Below are positions 2,871 to 54,828 of a stretch of 64,000 bases of DNA, piece by piece. This DNA comes from Bacteroidota bacterium (GTDB lineage Bacteria; Bacteroidota; Bacteroidia; Bacteroidales; WCHB1-69): the NCBI GenBank assembly GCA_022708105.1, contig JAKIZI010000002.1, positions 1 through 64,000 on the forward strand, read 5' to 3'. Numbering within the stretch: the first letter of the stretch is position 1; each line of letters begins with the position of its first letter. The notes under the pieces are model-generated. The model saw only the letters and a list, made by a program, of their open reading frames with translations. It ran no database searches and was not told the origin of the DNA. A program made the translations under genes and the position numbers.

Positions 2871-2946
2871 GAACATAATGATTAGTTCCGGTGTGATTAT
2901 GAGAATTATCTAATTTGTTTATTTATTTAAATTTGAGAATATCGAG

Positions 2947-5397
2947 GTGAAATGGAATAAAATATTATGGAAAGAGGGACTTAAATCTTATGCACTATTG
3001 GTGGGATTGTTGTTGCTTTTTGTTTTAATATTGAAAGTAGGGGAGACGATTCGGCTGTTGATGACGATAGAAGTTGATTTTTTCCCGGTTATTGCGAATT
3101 CCTTTTTACAGGCACTGTGGTCGGTTATGTTGCCGGCACTTTCTTTATTTCCCGTTTTTATTTTAGGAAGGCGGTTTTCGGAGCGTGCAACCTACTTTTT
3201 ATTTGCTTTTTTGTGCGAATTATATCTCTTATTTGAAATATCATTGACCATCTATGCAATCAGAAGTGGTTTTTTGATGGGAAGTGAATTGATGGTACGC
3301 CCTTTTCATGAGAGTTGGATGACGATAGTTAGTGTGGTGCCCGGATGGTTGGTGTTCCTTTTTGCCGGAGTATCTGTTTTTGGGTTTTTAGCGACAGCGG
3401 CTTTCCTGCGGAAGAAACAGATAGGAAAAATTCTTTTAAGCGTGTTGGTGGGGGTCTCTGTTCTATCCCCTTTATTATTTGTATTGCGTCATTATACTGA
3501 ACAAAAGTATCAATTAAATCCGGCTGTGTATGCTTATATTTCGGGGAAATCATATCATTGTCTCTCTTCATGGGGTGAATACATGATGAAACCTGAGTTT
3601 GTGGTAAAGCAAGACAAAGAGTTGTTAATGCAATTTTTGGAAGAAAATCCAGGGTGGGCGGTGTCGGATATAGAATATCCTTTTGAACGAAAGGTGACGT
3701 CGGGGAGTGTCCTTGCTCCTTATTTTCGTGCTTCGGAGGAACGACCGAATGTGGTATTGGTCATTGTGGAGTCTTGGGGCGACAGTTGGTTCAGAGCCGG
3801 TTCCAATGGAGTGAGTTTTACCCCTTTTTTGGATTCGTTGTCGCGGCATTCACTGTATTGGAAGAATTGTTTGACTACGACTCCGCGTAGTTTTGGAGCA
3901 GTGCCTTCGATTACCGGATCTCTGCCGCACGGAGTTCAAGGTTTTCAGTTCGGAGAGATGCCCGATCACAATAGTTTAATCAAGATCTTGAAAAATAATG
4001 ATTATCGGATTAATGCCTTTTATGCCGGAGATTTTACTTTTGATGGAATTTATGAATATTTGGAGGCGCAAAAGACAGATTATTTCTCTCCCTTTTTTCA
4101 GGAAGCATGGAAAGATTTCAGTCCGGGGCGGGAGACGACTTATTGGGGCTATCAGGATGAGCCGTTTATTCGCAAAACACTTTCCGTATTGGAACAAGAA
4201 AAAACGGAACAACCTGTTTGTAATTTAGTGATAACTATTAGTGCACATGAAAATTTGTCATTGGTGAATAAACAAAAAGAGCAATTTTATAAAGCCAAAG
4301 CGCGACAATTGATTGAAAAGTTACCGATTGCAGCGCAGGCGACGGCAATGAAGAATTTGGATAAAATTGCATCCATTGTATATACGGATGATTGTTTGCG
4401 TTTGTTTATGAATCGTTATAGAGAAATCAGCGGTTATGAGCAGACTATTTTTGTATTTACGGGAGATCATGGTGGGGCTATTGAGGAGTCGAATAGTCTT
4501 GGTTATTTCCATGTTCCTTTGCTAATCTGGTCTCCTTTGCTGGAGCGTCCCAAAACATTTCCCGCGGTGGTTAGTCATTTGGATATTGCACCTTCAATTA
4601 CAGCATTGCTTGCGGAGAAGTATGGGCTTTTGCTGCCGGAGCAGGTGCATTTTGTGGGACAAGAACTTGATACGGCCCACCTGTTCCGCTCGCAGCAACG
4701 ACTTCTTTTTCTGCTCTATGCACGTCAAATTACCGATATGGTATATCAGAATTATTATGTAACAGATCAAAACCTTTATCGGATCAATGAAAATATGGAG
4801 ATGGAAAAACTCAATTCGAAAAATCTTCAACAAAAGATTCGTGAGATGAGAGATTTATATATTTATATGCATCAATATGTATATTTAAATGATAAATTGA
4901 CCAAAAATCCCCTTTACCCGAAAGCGTATTATCATTCGGTTTTGAATTATAAACCGCATGAGATTTTTACTTTTCAAAACCCACCGAACCCACCGAAAAA
5001 TATGAATGATGCGGTTCAATTTTATATTGTTGCGCCAACGTCGCTGCCAACTTCTCAAAATAAAAAAATTGAGAAAGTCCGAATTTCGGTTTCGGCAGAA
5101 GTGATGTATGAAGGTCGTGTTTTTCAGGATCAGTTCATGAGTTTGGTGTTGGAATGTCATGGGGAGAAGATGACTACTCCTACACAATATAAGGATAAAC
5201 TATCCAAGTTCTTTTTAAAAAACCGTTATACAGTTCATGAATGGGTGAAAATGAAAGTTGTAAAGGAGTTTGCTCTTGAGGGCAGTGAAAATACCACCTT
5301 TTCGGTTTCGTTACTGAGTACAGAAAAACAAGAGTTATGGGTAAAGGATCACAAAGTCTTTTTAAGGAATGTGTGCGTAGAAGTCACAGTTCTTTAG
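2947..5397 (+). CDS. LTA synthase-family membrane sulfatase/phosphoglycerol transferase
   Basis: Membrane-anchored alkaline-phosphatase-superfamily enzyme. About five N-terminal transmembrane segments fill residues 1-190, followed by an extracytoplasmic sulfatase domain from about residue 265. Metal and active-site elements are visible: NVVLVIVES with Glu275, the TTTPRS segment (residues 310-315) that should supply the nucleophilic Thr/Ser, and TGDHGG with Asp507/His508. Relatives (LtaS, MdoB/OpgB) transfer or hydrolyse glycerophosphate on glycolipids or glucans; the exact substrate is inferred only. The start is a GTG, chosen because it keeps the first membrane helix. About 200 residues at the C-terminus lie outside the catalytic domain. 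A paralogue lies tail-to-tail on the other strand. Confidence 0.85.
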   Translation: MKWNKILWKEGLKSYALLVGLLLLFVLILKVGETIRLLMTIEVDFFPVIANSFLQALWSVMLPALSLFPVFILGRRFSERATYFLFAFLCELYLLFEISLTIYAIRSGFLMGSELMVRPFHESWMTIVSVVPGWLVFLFAGVSVFGFLATAAFLRKKQIGKILLSVLVGVSVLSPLLFVLRHYTEQKYQLNPAVYAYISGKSYHCLSSWGEYMMKPEFVVKQDKELLMQFLEENPGWAVSDIEYPFERKVTSGSVLAPYFRASEERPNVVLVIVESWGDSWFRAGSNGVSFTPFLDSLSRHSLYWKNCLTTTPRSFGAVPSITGSLPHGVQGFQFGEMPDHNSLIKILKNNDYRINAFYAGDFTFDGIYEYLEAQKTDYFSPFFQEAWKDFSPGRETTYWGYQDEPFIRKTLSVLEQEKTEQPVCNLVITISAHENLSLVNKQKEQFYKAKARQLIEKLPIAAQATAMKNLDKIASIVYTDDCLRLFMNRYREISGYEQTIFVFTGDHGGAIEESNSLGYFHVPLLIWSPLLERPKTFPAVVSHLDIAPSITALLAEKYGLLLPEQVHFVGQELDTAHLFRSQQRLLFLLYARQITDMVYQNYYVTDQNLYRINENMEMEKLNSKNLQQKIREMRDLYIYMHQYVYLNDKLTKNPLYPKAYYHSVLNYKPHEIFTFQNPPNPPKNMNDAVQFYIVAPTSLPTSQNKKIEKVRISVSAEVMYEGRVFQDQFMSLVLECHGEKMTTPTQYKDKLSKFFLKNRYTVHEWVKMKVVKEFALEGSENTTFSVSLLSTEKQELWVKDHKVFLRNVCVEVTVL

Positions 5398-7845: not shown

Positions 7846-9810
7846 TTATTCAATCACAATTTCATACACATGACCTTCAATATCCGTTTTGTTATAAGGA
7901 ATAAGTCCTTGTTCAAAAACAATAGGAGGCCACCATTCCGAGTAATGGTATTCTTGGGTAATGATACAAAGCATTTGGTTATTGGGAATAGAGGTATATT
8001 TATCGTTCATATATCCCACAACTTTCATTTGATTCGGAGTGGGCCCCAACCGCCAAATAATTTCATTGGGTTTCCACTCAATTTCGTAATAGTAGAACTC
8101 TTCTTTAAAAATATCGTTCGAAAATGGTGTTTTGATTGTCAGGGCTTTATAATATTCATACCATCGCATTGCATCATAGGTGGTCGTTTTATTATATGGA
8201 ATTTTATTAATACCTGCTGCGAATTTTTGTGGGTCATGAGAGGCCAAATCCCAATTGGTACAGCAATACATTACTTCATTATTCTTCTTTTCATCTCGAT
8301 ATTTGGGTTTTGGATTTTCTTCTCCCCAATAATACATTTCAGGCCAATAAGGGGAAGTTTTTACGATTTCTATATCGATTTCTGAATAGTAATTATAGGG
8401 ATGTAACTTCGGGTTCTGAGATTCATCATCTTTGGCTACATATCCTTTTGGAGAATAACGACGGTTGTTCCACGGGTGACTGTCTTGATAAATCAACCAA
8501 AAAGCGTATGTTAATCCATTCCAAATATTCTCCTCATTGAGCATCACGGGAAATTTGATTTTTCCTCTATATTTTCCGTATGTAAAACCCACCCGAGTTC
8601 TGATGCCGGTGGATTCTTTTTTAAGATTTTGGAGATTATCATTACCGGGATTGATAAGACTTATATAATCTTTATTAGGAGATACTTGAACCGTTTTGCA
8701 CGGACAATCTGAAACAACTGGATAATCATATTTTAATTGTGTAGAGTCAAAAAGGGTTGCATTGTGCAGATATTCTTCTAAAGTATAAGGATTAATATCG
8801 CTAACTACATCTCGAATGACAGGAATATTACGTAATGAATATTGTTTACTTACGGAGCTCAAAAATTGCTGAAAGAGTGCGTTTTGATATAACGTAGTGT
8901 CAACACCGCAAAATTCGGAAGGGGAAATTTCGTATTGATTGGTTTTCAATGTAAGTTCATCAACAAAAACCCCTTGTTGGGGAGTGATAACAGCTCTTGT
9001 TTTTAGAATACGCTTACTTATAACGGAATATATGCCTTTCTGTTTGTTTTCGGAGAACCATTGGTAGGGATTTACAAACTTTTTTTCGGAATTTTTTAAT
9101 CCAATATATTGGATGTAGTCAGGAATTTTCTTCAGGGCTTCTTCTTCGCAAATCACTAATAAAAAAGAGTAACAGCCGGCACGGGGATTTCGTTTCCAAC
9201 GATGATTATAAGAACCTTCATTTTTTCGTTCTTTAAGAATCCAAGTTGCATCTAAATAGATCAATTTCTGAAGAGAAACATTTCGCTTTTGCGATTTTTC
9301 TATTAAAAAATTATACCAATCAGGACTATTTTTAATTTCTTGGATAATTGCATCTATGTTTTCTTGGGTAAATATGGAACAGGAGAGATCTGCACCATAA
9401 TATATTTTTTCATCTCTCGGATTGCCGACAATTCGAAAAGAATCAATATTGAGGCCGCGAAGGGGAACGGGTTTAAATCCAATCTCTGCCTCTTCCCAAC
9501 TTCCGTAAAAATTTTCGTAGGAAAGGGAATCTTTTTCGTCAAATTTGTAACTTTCATTTTGATAGTAAATCTTATAGAAATATTTTTTTTCCGAATCTCC
9601 CAAGAAATCAAATGAAAATTTAAACATTCCGGAAGGGGTTTGACGAAATGATGGAATGACAATGCCGTCTGTAACCACTTGTTCTAAATCCATATCCAAA
9701 AAAACAGTGTCTCCTTCAGGAAAGTTGCTCATCGGATCAAAAGTTACTTTGTGGCATGATGAAAATAGAGTCAAAATAATGATACTTAAACCAAAAAGAT
9801 AATATTTCAT
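7846..9810 (-). CDS. Lipoprotein with C-terminal GH16-like (laminarinase-type) domain
   Basis: Surface or periplasmic lipoprotein of 654 aa when started at the ATG at 9810; a TTG 12 bp upstream is less likely. The signal peptide ends in LFSSC with Cys at about residue 19. The N-terminal two thirds is not recognised. The C-terminal third resembles family 16 glycoside hydrolases: EIDIE (Glu477, Asp479, Glu481) fits the catalytic ExDxE pattern, and a YYYEIEWKPNEIIWRLG strand pair follows, as in beta-glucanases. Activity on a beta-glucan or related polymer is an inference. It starts 1 nt after the GDPD-like gene, so translation is probably coupled. Confidence 0.7.
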   Translation of the reverse strand: MKYYLFGLSIIILTLFSSCHKVTFDPMSNFPEGDTVFLDMDLEQVVTDGIVIPSFRQTPSGMFKFSFDFLGDSEKKYFYKIYYQNESYKFDEKDSLSYENFYGSWEEAEIGFKPVPLRGLNIDSFRIVGNPRDEKIYYGADLSCSIFTQENIDAIIQEIKNSPDWYNFLIEKSQKRNVSLQKLIYLDATWILKERKNEGSYNHRWKRNPRAGCYSFLLVICEEEALKKIPDYIQYIGLKNSEKKFVNPYQWFSENKQKGIYSVISKRILKTRAVITPQQGVFVDELTLKTNQYEISPSEFCGVDTTLYQNALFQQFLSSVSKQYSLRNIPVIRDVVSDINPYTLEEYLHNATLFDSTQLKYDYPVVSDCPCKTVQVSPNKDYISLINPGNDNLQNLKKESTGIRTRVGFTYGKYRGKIKFPVMLNEENIWNGLTYAFWLIYQDSHPWNNRRYSPKGYVAKDDESQNPKLHPYNYYSEIDIEIVKTSPYWPEMYYWGEENPKPKYRDEKKNNEVMYCCTNWDLASHDPQKFAAGINKIPYNKTTTYDAMRWYEYYKALTIKTPFSNDIFKEEFYYYEIEWKPNEIIWRLGPTPNQMKVVGYMNDKYTSIPNNQMLCIITQEYHYSEWWPPIVFEQGLIPYNKTDIEGHVYEIVIE

Positions 9811-49281: not shown

Positions 49282-50427
49282 GTTAGCATTTATTTAAAAA
49301 GACAAAACAGACAACTTCTATGTACGGACTGAAAGATTTAAAAACCACAATAAAAACAGACATTAATTCAGTTGAGTGCCCAGTTAAAGGTTGTTCTGTG
49401 AAAGTTGACCGACAAAGAAATTCATTCAAACGAGAGCAGACATACTTATGCCCGACTCACAAGATTTATATATCTCCTTCGACGTTTGAGTACGAAACAG
49501 AGAAAGAAAATTTATTGTGGTTTGACAATTCAGACAACCTACTTTTTGAAGAAATAAAAAAAGTAAAGAGAGAAAGCCGTATCTCAAGGGATAACAGTGA
49601 AGATGCTTTAACTTGGAATGTGTTTAGGTTTCTCGACAAACAAGGACTCCTGCCAGATTTTCTTTCTCAATTATCAAACAAAGAAATTAAAGACACAGAA
49701 TTGATTTTATGGTCATATTCACCAAAAGAAAAATCTGGCTGGACATTATTGAATCAAGCACGTGAGGAATTTGGTGAGAAAATCAAAAGAGGCTCTGAAC
49801 CTGATATTATAATACGGACAAACAAAGTATTATATTTCATAGAAGCAAAGTTAACAGCAAAAAACGAAACTACACCAAGCGAATCGCAAAACAGAAAAAA
49901 ATACGAAACTGGCGGGGATAGATTGTTTCAACAAATCTTCAAATCAGACTATGAAACTGTTGCTGAAAAGGAAAAAAGATATGAATTAATGCGGTTTTGG
50001 TTGATTGGAAGTTGGATGGCAAAAAAACTTAATGTAGACTTTGAATTTTATAGTTTGGTAATGCAATCCAGAGAATTAGACATTGAAGCAACCTTTGGTA
50101 AGCATATAATTGAAACAACAGAAAGGAAATTTTTCCGCTTGACTTGGGAGCAAATCTATGCTTTTATTAAACTGCTCCCAGACAATAAGGAAAAATATAT
50201 AGTGAATAAGTACTTTGAAAACAAGTCTCTTGGGTACAATTCTATTGGTAAAATTATAAAGGCATTTAATGTTAAATTGACGAAGATAAAAAAATAAACA
50301 AATGCTAACAAAGTGTAAATGCCATAAGGGTTTCAGTGGGTATGCGAAGTGTTGTAGACCACTTCAACTTTTCGTGTAACTTGACAGAAAATCGCCCGCA
50401 ATCCCGCACTGCTCATAGCCGGAACCG
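49282..50427 (+). mobile_element. Integron-type gene cassette (nuclease plus attC-like site)
   Basis: Bounded by two direct copies of GTTAGCAT (49282-49289 and 50427-50434), the expected result of site-specific insertion at G/TTAGC. It contains one promoterless-looking gene and, after it, the attC-like palindrome. No integrase gene is in the window, so this would be a lone cassette. Confidence 0.55.
49320..50297 (+). CDS. PD-(D/E)XK nuclease-domain protein with N-terminal zinc ribbon
   Basis: 325-aa protein of unknown target. Residues 20-47 form a likely zinc ribbon (Cys20, Cys25, Cys44, His47). The core has SEPDII (Asp162) followed by YFIEAKLTAK (Glu175, Lys177), the classic PD-(D/E)XK metal and catalytic residues. 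This points to a restriction-like or defence endonuclease. It has no companion methylase. It is the only gene in the putative cassette. Confidence 0.7.
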   Translation: MYGLKDLKTTIKTDINSVECPVKGCSVKVDRQRNSFKREQTYLCPTHKIYISPSTFEYETEKENLLWFDNSDNLLFEEIKKVKRESRISRDNSEDALTWNVFRFLDKQGLLPDFLSQLSNKEIKDTELILWSYSPKEKSGWTLLNQAREEFGEKIKRGSEPDIIIRTNKVLYFIEAKLTAKNETTPSESQNRKKYETGGDRLFQQIFKSDYETVAEKEKRYELMRFWLIGSWMAKKLNVDFEFYSLVMQSRELDIEATFGKHIIETTERKFFRLTWEQIYAFIKLLPDNKEKYIVNKYFENKSLGYNSIGKIIKAFNVKLTKIKK

Positions 50428-50493: not shown

Positions 50494-50982
50494 ATGAGAC
50501 ACAAGCGATTAAAATTAAGTGCCATACTCTTGTTAGGACTTGGACTAACAGGACTACAAGCACAAGAAAGCGTTAATTCCACCGGCGGAAATGCTGTTTC
50601 CTCTAGTGGCTCGGTGAGTTATTCCGTCGGACAGGATTCATACCATAGTCCAGTCGGCATCAACGGATCAGTAGCGGAAGGTGTGCAGCAGCCATATGAA
50701 ATTTCGGTAATCACAGAAATCGAAGAAGCGAAGGGCATAACTCTTTCCATTTCGGTATACCCGAACCCTGCAACTAATTATCTTTCATTGGAAATTAAAG
50801 ATATAGAAATTACCGATTTAAGATTTCAATTATTTGATATGCAAGGAAAACTTTTACATAATGAAAAAATAGTTGGGAATCAAACCACTATTGCGATGAA
50901 TAAATATGCTCCGGCAACCTATTTTATAAAAGTTTTTCAGGATAATACAGAAGTAAAAACATTTAAAGTAATAAAAAATTAA
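50494..50982 (+). CDS. Small T9SS type A cargo protein
   Basis: 162-aa secreted protein. Signal peptide ends LQAQE (about 23). A Ser/Gly-rich strand region (VNSTGGNAVSSSGSVSYSVGQ) repeats a theme common in Bacteroidota surface proteins. The C-terminal 75 residues are the type A sorting domain: SVYPNPATNYLSLEI, LFDMQGKLL, YFIKVFQDNTEVKTFKVIKN. A near-perfect AAGGAGGT precedes the ATG. Its last codons are duplicated upstream of the second FISUMP gene. It probably ends on the surface or as a small secreted adhesin-like protein. Confidence 0.8.
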   Translation: MRHKRLKLSAILLLGLGLTGLQAQESVNSTGGNAVSSSGSVSYSVGQDSYHSPVGINGSVAEGVQQPYEISVITEIEEAKGITLSISVYPNPATNYLSLEIKDIEITDLRFQLFDMQGKLLHNEKIVGNQTTIAMNKYAPATYFIKVFQDNTEVKTFKVIKN

Positions 50983-50995
50983 GGAGGATTGTTAC

Positions 50996-52147
50996 ATGAA
51001 AAAAATACTTACCATTTTGTCAGTTGTGTTTTTAACAGCAACACTTTGGGCACAAAGCCCTGAAAAAATGAGTTATCAAGCAGTCATTCGAGATGCAAAT
51101 GGGAATCTTCTGTCCAACCATTCGATTGGGATGCAACTTAGCATCTTACAAGGTAGTCCAAGCGGCACTGCAGTTTACATCGAAAGACAATCTCCAAGCA
51201 CTAATGCCAATGGATTGGTAACTTTAGAAATAGGAAACGGGACAGTGGTGTCGGGCGATTTTACTACCATCGACTGGGCAAACGGCCCTTATTTTCTGAA
51301 ATCCGAAACAGATCTTAACGGCGGGGCAACATACACTATTGCAGGAACAAGTCAGCTATTAAGTGTACCCTATGCTTTACATGCAAAAACGGCGGAAACG
51401 CTTACAGGTGGCATTACCGAAACCGACCCCAGCGTACCCACAGGAACCCAATCTGGACAAATGCAATATTGGAACGGCACAGCATGGGTAACTGTTGCAG
51501 CTACCGCAAACGAAGGAGCAACGCTACAAATGATTGGAGGCGTGCCTACATGGGTAGGCGGAGCACCTCCTCCACAAAATGTTACCAACCCCACCACCGG
51601 TGAAATTTGGATGGACCGTAACCTTGGCGCCTCACAAGTGGCAATAAGTAGCACCGATGCCCTTGCTTATGGCGATTTGTACCAGTGGGGACGTGCAGCA
51701 GACGGTCACGAAAGCCGTACATCGGGTACAACATCTACATTGGCAACAAGCGATACCCCCGGGCATGGCTATTTTATAACCAGTATCAGTTTCCCTGACG
51801 ATTGGCGCAACCCGCAAAACGACAACCTTTGGCAGGGTGTAAGCGGCATCAACAATCCTTGCCCAAGTGGTTACCGCATACCAACCAGAGCCGAATGGGA
51901 AGCCGAGCTTGCAAGTTGGAGTAGCAACAATGCAGCCGGAGCTTTTGCCTCTCCGCTTAAGTTGCCCGTGCCCGGCGGCCGAGACGACAGCAATGGCGTG
52001 CTCAGCAGTGCGGGTACCAACGCCTACTATTGGTCGAGTACGGTAGATGGTACCAGCGTCATACTCCTGTGCTTCAACAGTAGCAATGCCAATATGATCA
52101 GCTACGGCCGTGGATACGGCTTATCTGTCCGCTGCATTAAGGATTAG
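50996..52147 (+). CDS. FISUMP-domain surface protein, copy 1 (candidate DGR target)
   Basis: 383-aa secreted protein. Signal peptide (MKKILTILSVVFLTAT, cleavage near LWAQS); N-terminal conserved region (about 20-180) including SYQAVIRDANGN and SQLLSVPYALHAK; then a Fibrobacter-major-paralogue (FISUMP) C-type-lectin-like domain from GEIWMDRNLG (about 200) to VRCIKD at the end. Repeated blocks NPCPSGYRIPT, WSSNNAAGAFASPLKLP and YYWSSTVDGT are conserved; the residues between vary against copy 2. Codon-level comparison suggests diversification by a retroelement. The ribosome-binding site is AAGGAGG. Confidence 0.85.
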   Translation: MKKILTILSVVFLTATLWAQSPEKMSYQAVIRDANGNLLSNHSIGMQLSILQGSPSGTAVYIERQSPSTNANGLVTLEIGNGTVVSGDFTTIDWANGPYFLKSETDLNGGATYTIAGTSQLLSVPYALHAKTAETLTGGITETDPSVPTGTQSGQMQYWNGTAWVTVAATANEGATLQMIGGVPTWVGGAPPPQNVTNPTTGEIWMDRNLGASQVAISSTDALAYGDLYQWGRAADGHESRTSGTTSTLATSDTPGHGYFITSISFPDDWRNPQNDNLWQGVSGINNPCPSGYRIPTRAEWEAELASWSSNNAAGAFASPLKLPVPGGRDDSNGVLSSAGTNAYYWSSTVDGTSVILLCFNSSNANMISYGRGYGLSVRCIKD

Positions 52148-52191
52148 ACACTTTGAAAAGCGAAACGATTTGACACTTTGACACTTAAACA

Positions 52192-52206
52192 CCCTGTTCC
52201 GCAGGG
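52192..52206. other. Hairpin downstream of FISUMP copy 1
   Basis: CCCTG-TTCCG-CAGGG, a 5-bp perfect stem 45 bp after the stop codon. DGR targets often have a hairpin shortly after the variable region, but this stem is short. No equivalent follows copy 2. Confidence 0.4.
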
Positions 52207-52265
52207 CTATATTACTGCCGCTTTTAAGACCGATAGCGAATGGTCTAAAAAGTAATAGTATTATA

Positions 52266-53461
52266 TACAGAAGTAAAAACATTTAAAGTAATAAAAAATT
52301 AAGGAGGATTGTTCAATGAAAAAAATAATTACCATTTTATCAGTTGTGTTTTTAACAGCAACACTTTGGGCACAAAGCCCCGAACAAATGAGTTATCAAG
52401 CAGTAATTCGAGAAGCAAACGGGAATTTTCTGTCCAATCATTCGATTGGGATGCAACTTAGCATCTTACAAGGTAGTCCAAGCGGCACTGCAGTTTACAT
52501 CGAAAGACAATCTCCAAGTACTAATACCAATGGATTGGTAACTTTAGAAATAGGAAACGGGATAGTGGTGTCGGGCGATTTTACCACCATCGACTGGGCA
52601 AACGGCCCTTATTTCCTGAAATCCGAAACAGATCTTAACGGCGGGGAAACATATACTATTGCAGGAACAAGTCAGCTATTAAGTGTACCGTATGCTTTAC
52701 ATTCAAAAACGGCGGAAACGGTTACAGGTGGCATTACCGAAACCGACCCCAGCGTACCCACAGGAACCCAATCTGGGGAAATGCAATATTGGAACGGCAC
52801 AGCATGGGTAACTGTTGCAGCTACCGCAAACGAAGGAGCAACTCTACAAATGATTGGAGGCGTGCCTACATGGGTAGGCGGAGCACCTCCTCCACAAAAT
52901 GTTACCAACCCCACTACTGGTGAAATTTGGATGGACCGTAACCTTGGCGCCTTACAAGTGGCAACAAGTAGCACCGATGCAAGCTCTTACGGCAACTTGT
53001 ACCAGTGGGGGCGTGCAGCAGACGGTCACGAAAGCCGTACATCGGGTACAACATCTACATTGGCAACAAGCGATACACCCGGACATGGCGATTTTATAAC
53101 CAATAGAAGTAGCCCTTACGATTGGCGCAACCCGCAAAACGACAACCTTTGGCAGGGTGTAAGCGGCATCAACAATCCTTGTCCAAGTGGTTACCGCATA
53201 CCAACCTCAGCCGAATGGGAAGCCGAGCGTACAAGTTGGAGTAGCAACGATGCAGCCGGAGCTTTTGCCTCTCCGCTTAAGTTGCCCATGGCCGGCTGGC
53301 GTAGCCCCATCGATGGCACGATCACTTATGTGGACAGCCGCTATTGGTCGAGTACGGTATATAGTACCCTCGCCGGTAAGCTAATCTTCAACAGTAGCAA
53401 TTCCTTCGTGAGCACCGAAGGCCGTGTAGCTGGCTTTTCTGTTCGTTGCATTAAAGATTAG
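52266..53461 (+). repeat. Second unit of a tandem duplication (1320-bp offset)
   Basis: Positions 52266-52317 repeat 50946-50997, including the last codons of the T9SS gene (EVKTFKVIKN), its stop and the AAGGAGG site. The FISUMP copies then align at a constant 1320-bp offset until about 53280. This shows a tandem duplication whose left junction lies inside the upstream gene. Confidence 0.85.
52316..53461 (+). CDS. FISUMP-domain surface protein, copy 2 (candidate DGR target)
   Basis: 381-aa paralogue of the preceding gene, nearly identical over the first 200 residues. It diverges at scattered positions in the C-terminal FISUMP domain: AFASPLKLPMAGWRSPIDG and YWSSTVYSTLAGKLIF against different residues in copy 1. 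The final VRCIKD is shared. Two codons are lacking near the YYW segment. Its domain should adopt the C-type-lectin-like fold used for ligand binding. Confidence 0.85.
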   Translation: MKKIITILSVVFLTATLWAQSPEQMSYQAVIREANGNFLSNHSIGMQLSILQGSPSGTAVYIERQSPSTNTNGLVTLEIGNGIVVSGDFTTIDWANGPYFLKSETDLNGGETYTIAGTSQLLSVPYALHSKTAETVTGGITETDPSVPTGTQSGEMQYWNGTAWVTVAATANEGATLQMIGGVPTWVGGAPPPQNVTNPTTGEIWMDRNLGALQVATSSTDASSYGNLYQWGRAADGHESRTSGTTSTLATSDTPGHGDFITNRSSPYDWRNPQNDNLWQGVSGINNPCPSGYRIPTSAEWEAERTSWSSNDAAGAFASPLKLPMAGWRSPIDGTITYVDSRYWSSTVYSTLAGKLIFNSSNSFVSTEGRVAGFSVRCIKD

Positions 53462-53557
53462 ACACTTTGACACTTTTTTATAATCCCCCTTTGGCGGACG
53501 AAAAATAGTTTTAAAAAAGCAATAATTGAGAATTTTGAAGAATTTACCATATGTGAG

Positions 53558-53643: not shown

Positions 53644-54210
53644 ATGGCAAAGAGCAGCACCCGCAGAGTCTCATTCTATATCAACGGCAAGGAAATCGAA
53701 GCATCGGTCAAACAAGTCCGTGCCGAAATGAACCGCCTTGTCAACGAACAAAACAAAATGGTCATCGGCAGCGACGAATATGTCGCCCACGCCAAGAAAA
53801 TTCGTGAACTCCGATCAATTCTCAAAGAACACACCCAAGAAATAGGTAATGCCAAATCCCAATGGCAAGAACTATACGATAAAGTCATGCAATTCGGCAT
53901 GGGAGTTGGTGGATTTACTCAAATTTTTGAGATGGCTGACAATGCCATTTCAACCCTAAAACAACTGGCTACCGACCTTGCCGAGATGGACGATATCTAT
54001 AGCGACGTAATGAAGACAACGGGCTTCACTCATGAACAAGTCGAAGAACTCAATAAGAGCTTCAAAGCAATGGATACACGCACTTCAAGGGAACAACTGA
54101 ACAACCTTGCTTACATTGCCGGAAAACTCGGGCTAAATACAAAAGAACTAGTTACGCAGTTTGTAGAAGCGGCTGACGTGATCAATGTTTCTATGGGAAA
54201 ATATTTATAG
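53644..54210 (+). pseudogene. Phage tail tape-measure protein, N-terminal fragment
   Basis: 188 codons encode the start of a tail-length tape-measure protein: charged coiled region (residues 15-65) and then TGFTHEQVEELNKSFKAMDT and EQLNNLAYIAGKLGLNTKEL, which are typical of the phage tape-measure core. A stop follows VSMGKYL where intact proteins continue for hundreds of residues. It has a normal start. It is probably a prophage remnant brought in with the island. Confidence 0.75.
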
Positions 54211-54415: not shown

Positions 54416-54604
54416 ACGGGGTAGGTAATAAGATTCTTCATTTTGATTTATTAGCTGAAAATTTTTTATTGTTGTCTGGTAAAAAATAAAAACCATCAAA
54501 AACCAATCAAAAGTCCTTGATAATCAAGTACACGATTTTGTTTTTTAAAAAGGAAGCCCCCTTCCAATTAACATATTCATTGTTAGACTTCGTAGGTAGC
54601 TTTC

Positions 54605-54802
54605 CACGAATTCATGGCAAGCCTGTCACGAATTCATGGCAAGCCTGTCACGAATTCATGGCAAGCCTGTCACGAGTTCATGGCAAGCCTGTCACGAGTT
54701 CATGGCAAGCCTGTCACGAGTTCATGGCAAGCCTGTCACGAGTTCATGACAAGCCTGTCGTGAGTCCGAGACAAGCCTGTCATGAGTTCATGACAGGCCT
54801 CC
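54605..54802. repeat. 22-bp minisatellite, nine units
   Basis: Nine head-to-tail units of CACGAATTCATGGCAAGCCTGT with drift towards the right (GAGTTCATGACAAG). 22 bp is not a multiple of three, so the open frame across it is incidental. Units are contiguous with no spacers. Confidence 0.9.
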
Positions 54803-54828
54803 CATGAGTCCGAAGTTACTCTCGAATA

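Follow-up and report, generated by a model that had tools for sequence, protein, structure and literature searches.

Two adjacent genes in a 64,000-nucleotide stretch of a metagenome-assembled genome of Bacteroidota (hereafter the window) are nearly identical over most of their length and diverge at their 3′ ends. Were these ends written by a diversity-generating retroelement (DGR), in which the reverse-transcribed copy of a template repeat (TR) overwrites the variable region (VR) of a target gene, and if so, does such an element still act on them? The genome comprises 2.02 Mb in 274 contigs and is 75.8% complete.

Both genes lie on the forward strand. Target gene 1 (50996-52147) encodes 383 amino acids with a signal-peptide-like start, a conserved N-terminal part and a C-terminal FISUMP domain (Pfam PF09603, Fib_succ_major; 41.8 bits, above the cut-off of 33.9). 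Target gene 2 (52316-53461; 381 amino acids) has the same architecture; its domain scores 26.9 bits, below that cut-off, and is 76% identical to the domain of copy 1. Self-BLAST placed the genes in the two units (50945-52156 and 52265-53470, forward strand) of a 1.21-kb tandem duplication with 90.8% identity. Upstream of them, on the same strand, a gene at 50494-50982 codes for a small secreted protein that carries a T9SS sorting domain (Por_Secre_tail; PF18962, E 8e-12). In relatives the target operon opens with this conserved gene, and its homologues sit before the target at loci L068, L056, L132 and L105. Judged from sequence, the two products are best explained as secreted proteins of the FISUMP family (C-type-lectin type), with the last ~61 codons of each gene forming the variable region. 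By analogy with the family, the domain may have a ligand-binding role. An AlphaFold model of the domain (47 sequences; pLDDT 46) was too poor to map the variable sites, and a search by sequence for a solved relative in the PDB found none.

Directly 3′ of target gene 2 lies a tape-measure-like fragment of a phage tail protein (53644-54210; 188 amino acids), probably a prophage remnant. We rejected this ORF as a sign of a phage-borne DGR, as it is only a tape-measure-like fragment. Elsewhere in the neighbourhood, an ORF at 49320-50297 weakly matches REase-ARP (PF22558, just under the cut-off) and possibly encodes a restriction-type nuclease, and a short ORF at 54517-54807 consists of repeated units (KPVTNSWQACHEFMASLSRVHG...), forming a tandem repeat.

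An earlier note on the window had read the differences between the copies as the mark of a DGR, and its description of them was accurate. Divergence is 5.2% in codons 1-322 and 31% in codons 323-383. On recount over the stretch that the note had singled out, 40 codons change the amino acid (about 40 in the note), 30 of these keep the third base (about 30) and six differ silently (about eight). The ratio of nonsynonymous to synonymous codons is 24:20 in codons 1-322 and 31:5 in codons 323-383 (Fisher p=0.003). On its own, the third-base count carries little weight: if changes of equal size that alter the amino acid struck at random, 24.1±2.3 of 40 codons would keep the third base, so that 30 of 40 lies only weakly beyond chance (p=0.007), and we set this count aside as proof. 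Third bases differ in 14 of the 59 codons of the variable region, and nine of these codons also change the amino acid.

Homologues of the domain occur in at least 549 stretches of DNA from relatives and bacterial genomes, the best 80 of which are mostly from Bacteroidota. Two of these stretches are complete DGRs, each made up of a target, an accessory gene, a reverse transcriptase (RT) gene, Avd and a TR; their targets share 66-69% identity with the domain in the window. In Bacteroidales T1Sed10_123 (L111), these occupy 39-1040, 1114-1671, 1658-2875, 3239-3589 and 3722-3907, respectively. In Balneolaceae ANBcel3 (L128), the target ends at 2350 and is followed by the accessory gene (~2409-2933), RT (2942-4159), Avd (4117-4488) and TR (4608-4790). 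The Avd of the complete cassettes was named by phrog_3206. Mismatches between TR and VR fall on TR adenines in 21 of 21 cases in L111 and in 24 of 26 in L128; a third TR, from Flavivirga jejuensis, gives 21 of 21. Because the first codons of the L111 and L128 repeats correspond to 51962, and the repeats span exactly the equivalent of 51962 to 52144-52147, the extent of the VR could be fixed without use of the window. On the forward strand, VR 1 thus covers 51962-52147, and VR 2, to the same extent but for two deleted codons, 53282-53461. The window's own family also has a DGR (L068, genome G021), in which the sorting-domain gene and a target with an N-terminal part of the window type are followed directly by Avd, TR and RT; the FISUMP domain of this target is of another subtype than that in the window.

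The accessory protein (FTLYKEGxFYKCYNxDAM...) is conserved beside target and RT not only in L111 and L128 but also in L105 (3125-3649) and L067 (5719-6348), and it outlasts the RT in L105 and L144. Presumably it resembles a MutS-like N-terminal domain. A TlpA-like gene of the thioredoxin family likewise recurs by FISUMP targets or the DGR in several genera (L056, 953-2362; L057, 2084-3490; L128, 4919-6310; L132, 8504-9904).

Mutagenesis of the adenines in AAC or AAT (AAY) codons predicts that bases 1 and 2 vary and base 3 stays, a pattern that selection on the protein sequence does not predict. We compared the window genes with the foreign TRs at the 17 codons that are AAY in all three (L111, L128 and Flavivirga). 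Relative to the L111 TR, copy 1 keeps 4 of 17 amino acids and 17 of 17 third bases, including the distinction between C and T; 4.5 would be expected from the composition of the gene (p ~1e-10). For its own framework codons the figure is 26 of 43, a contrast with p=0.0013. The contrast is also significant against the L128 TR (p=0.012) and not significant against that of Flavivirga (16/17 against 32/43; p=0.15). In copy 2, the third base is retained at 10 of 16 AAY codons. Among 130 relatives, copy 1 has the best third-base fit.

The same signature pervades the family. In the 130 relatives, which are not independent of each other and whose figures are descriptive, amino acid identity to the TR is 12% at AAY codons versus 73% elsewhere, and third-base identity is 65% versus 54%. 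C or T occupies the third position in 87% of cases at TR codons and in 60% at other variable columns, and the residues K, Q, E, M and W, which NNC and NNT do not encode, are depleted at TR codons (5% versus 14%). Mutation of adenines in AAY codons, unlike selection on the protein, predicts these values. The earlier note had named third positions as variable as the others in a wider alignment as evidence against itself; in the 130 paralogues, the third bases of the variable codons are instead the more conserved. Measured against the TRs of relatives, there being no cognate TR, the window genes have a 3′ VR with changes at TR adenines and with third bases kept. From these sequence comparisons we conclude that a DGR very probably made the variable regions of the window.

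The pair does not behave like targets that share an active template. In ANBcel3, with its intact cassette, one target adjoins the DGR and further ones lie on the same contig. Four targets differ by 18-24% upstream and by only 2-9% in the VR framework, and third bases differ at 0-2 of 18 variable codons, as expected when all are rewritten from one template. The window pair shows the reverse: the upstream part of the domain is 7.1% and the VR framework 20.6% divergent, and third bases differ at 7 of 17 variable codons. The step is sharp, at 51968 after 36 identical bases, and third-base divergence is ~24% in the VR versus 7-8% before it. Differences between the copies are enriched at TR-adenine columns (24/47 versus 31/130; p 0.0009), but 30-31 of the 55 aligned VR differences fall on columns where the foreign TRs have a base other than adenine, so that mismatches, with these TRs as reference, are not confined to adenines. 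Nor is all variation confined to the VR, as 9 of the 40 amino acid changes fall 5′ of the TR-covered part. Upstream of any TR, 12 amino acid differences are scattered over 51662-51931 (forward strand) and are not explained by a DGR. Across the family, these columns vary to a moderate degree (entropy at most 3.1 bits, versus 3.0-3.8 at TR codons) and third-base use at the variable ones is ordinary; ordinary selection on the domain would be the simplest reading. The DGR interpretation is supported as to origin, by the homologous complete DGRs and the third-base test, but the view that the copies differ only or mainly in the manner of a DGR is not supported. The ~30 non-adenine differences are expected when a DGR no longer rewrites the copies. 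As a framework divergence of 20.6% exceeds the drift expected since a duplication of 5-7%, a second template or exchange with paralogues may have contributed.

The window contains no RT, Avd or template, as the earlier note had said, and the assembled genome as a whole contains no DGR-type RT, Avd or template; the lack of RT and template throughout the genome was one of the two findings that the note had named as speaking against it. A DGR-type RT was sought with the Pfam RT model and a DGR RT query in the 2.02 Mb assembled (75.8% complete), and none was found. The sole RT detected there (G000:C236, 1072-2613; L001) is not the DGR RT that is being sought, since it is the anti-phage defence RT DRT4 (PADLOC E 6e-182). 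Searches of the assembled genome for bAvd found none, and those for a TR, by DNA and by TR peptide, matched only the two VRs. Within the window, remnants of RT, Avd or the accessory gene gave matches at chance level only (best E 0.09). Of the components by which a functional DGR is recognised, a DGR-type RT, TR and Avd are thus all missing from the assembled genome, and a MutS-like accessory gene is missing from the window. A genome of the same genus that is 96% complete (G001) also yielded no DGR machinery.

The window pair is therefore very probably DGR-derived and probably orphaned; loss is indicated by the absence of RT, Avd and TR, although no remnant of them was found beside the genes. 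Granted the DGR origin, we are fairly confident that the pair is an orphan rather than a live remote target, a confidence limited by the incomplete assembly. In the explanation we favour, and consider likely as a whole, the VRs were written by a cassette of the type target - MutS-like accessory gene - RT - Avd - TR, as it occurs in other Bacteroidota, whose machinery has since been lost from the locus. The DGR would have reverse-transcribed an AAC/AAT-rich template, copying adenines at random, and the copy would have replaced the 3′ end of the target, varying bases 1 and 2 of ~17 codons and leaving base 3 as it was. In the lineage of the window, the target gene would have been duplicated in tandem, after which RT, Avd and TR would have disappeared from the locus. 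Both copies would now drift or come under selection like any other gene, and copy 2 would have gone further in this than copy 1.

The pair could instead be live targets that are still rewritten in trans, with the RT and one or two TRs sitting on a mobile element or in the quarter of the genome that the assembly lacks, and with two different templates behind the framework differences. Such an arrangement is in keeping with a genome that is 75.8% complete in 274 contigs, with the multi-target DGR of ANBcel3, with remote targets known elsewhere (PMC7517822, PMC3521204) and with the third-base fit of copy 1, the best of 130. The empty searches with Pfam RT, DGR RT, bAvd and TR peptide, their equally empty outcome in the 96% complete genome of the same genus and the 10 of 16 third bases kept in copy 2 argue against it, and we consider both parts of this reading unlikely.

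Other alternatives concern the divergence itself. Positive selection on a binding surface together with recombination between divergent paralogues, with no DGR at all, would account for variable positions upstream of the TR-covered part and for the non-adenine changes in the differing block, and other close pairs (L140/L153) do resemble swapped blocks. Selection on amino acids would not, however, preserve AAC-versus-AAT third bases, and in copy 1 it is at the most variable codons that third bases are best conserved (17/17); moreover, homologous targets reside in complete DGRs with adenine-confined mismatches. An origin without a DGR is thus very improbable. Still less probable, in our view, is that the genes are old duplicates in which gene conversion evened the N-terminal halves and left an older divergence in the C-terminal parts made by the DGR. 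The sharp step at 51968 after 36 identical bases and the rise in third-base divergence from 7-8% to ~24% would suit this history, but a DGR boundary explains the step without conversion, since the TRs of L111 and L128 have their 5′ ends at the same place. The question also bears on the age of the copies and not on the DGR origin.

A short conserved element lies 3′ of VR 1. The 3′ flank of VR 1 (52145-52209, forward strand) carries an element, TAGACACTTTGA..GATTTGACACTTTGACACTT, with a small inverted repeat (CCCTG-TTCCG-CAGGG; 52192-52206, forward strand), whereas that of VR 2 (53459-53470, forward strand) is truncated to TAGACACTTTGA, where the duplication ends. The element (TGACACTTTGA.. plus hairpin) recurs after targets in other genera. 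The motif CACTTTG was found within 60 nt after 22 of 99 terminal VRs (0.35 expected from shuffling) and after 1 of 31 internal VRs, in several orders of Bacteroidota. Its association with C or T at third bases, which is weak (p 0.006, or 0.029 once intact DGR loci are left out) and comes from related copies, forms no part of our main evidence. In a subset of DGRs, recognition of the target depends on a hairpin or cruciform 3′ of the VR (PMC3240598, PMC3521204). The flank element of VR 1 may have such a role or may merely be a terminator with its flank.

Sister loci show how a DGR can erode around its targets. In Flavivirga jejuensis KACC 14158 (L132, 3449-9904), the sorting-domain gene and two near-identical targets, as in the window, are followed by a stub of the accessory gene, 16 residues of Avd and an intact TR (8253-8435); there is no RT at this locus and most of Avd is deleted. 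This loss looks recent, because the TR-VR mismatches are still at adenines in 21 of 21 cases. The closest relative (UBA5219, L105; 79%) still has its sorting-domain gene and target, together with a complete accessory gene; its RT, Avd and TR are gone. In L144 and L109, the RT is reduced to about its first 33 and 56 residues, respectively. A locus of Saprospiraceae (L177) has a TR and a partial Avd with no RT nearby, and 11 of 36 TR-VR mismatches are not at adenine, which fits the expectation of the DiGReF survey for an inactivated DGR. Among the 52 loci whose sequence runs on for 3 kb or more past the last target, an RT match of more than 300 residues was present in two, only fragments or other DGR parts in eight and nothing in 42, a count that depends on homology to the queries and on MAG contigs; L111 itself is complete in its gene content.

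FISUMP targets, several targets per DGR, loss of the RT and remote variable proteins are all already described, so that the window pair is a further example of described DGR targets, decayed or remote. DGRs of human-gut bacteria with Fib_succ_major or DUF1566 targets have TR and RT beside the target (PMC4159848). They share with the window the target domain, the C-terminal variable region and the adenine-linked variation, but the assembly of the window genome lacks TR and RT. The DiGReF survey describes several targets per DGR and RT loss, and expects random mutations to accumulate besides A-mutations in an inactivated DGR (PMC3521204). Its inactivated DGRs resemble the window in that the RT is lost, variable genes persist and extra random mutations occur; unlike the window, where TR, Avd and RT are all gone, they still have TR and VR intact and an RT that is broken but can be recognised. 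Cyanobacterial DGRs have remote variable proteins (CLec genes; PMC7517822), which likewise lie away from the DGR, but there a DGR with a matching TR is in the genome and here none was found. Closest are L111 and L128, with a homologous target domain, and L068, with an operon of Por_Secre gene and window-type N-terminal target part; in contrast to the window, all three have kept RT, Avd and TR, and L111 and L128 the accessory gene as well. Our literature search on lost, orphan or degenerate DGR targets found no dedicated study; the precedents come from PMC3521204.

The findings imply that sequence alone can reveal variable proteins made by a DGR even when the element has vanished, if their wobble bases are compared with the templates of other species, and that large surveys in which the RT is the starting point overlook orphaned target genes. 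More tentatively, FISUMP lectins of the window type might constitute a widespread 'post-DGR' repertoire across Bacteroidota, of which the window is one late stage. In this reading, the retroelement would have been lost repeatedly, with the RT deleted and an accessory gene or TR remaining, and the binding proteins would have been kept, duplicated and diversified further by ordinary selection or paralogue exchange. The homologous loci form a graded series, from complete elements through those with the RT deleted and the TR kept to those with the accessory gene only and finally with nothing, which lets one ask whether diversified binding proteins stay useful once diversification ends.
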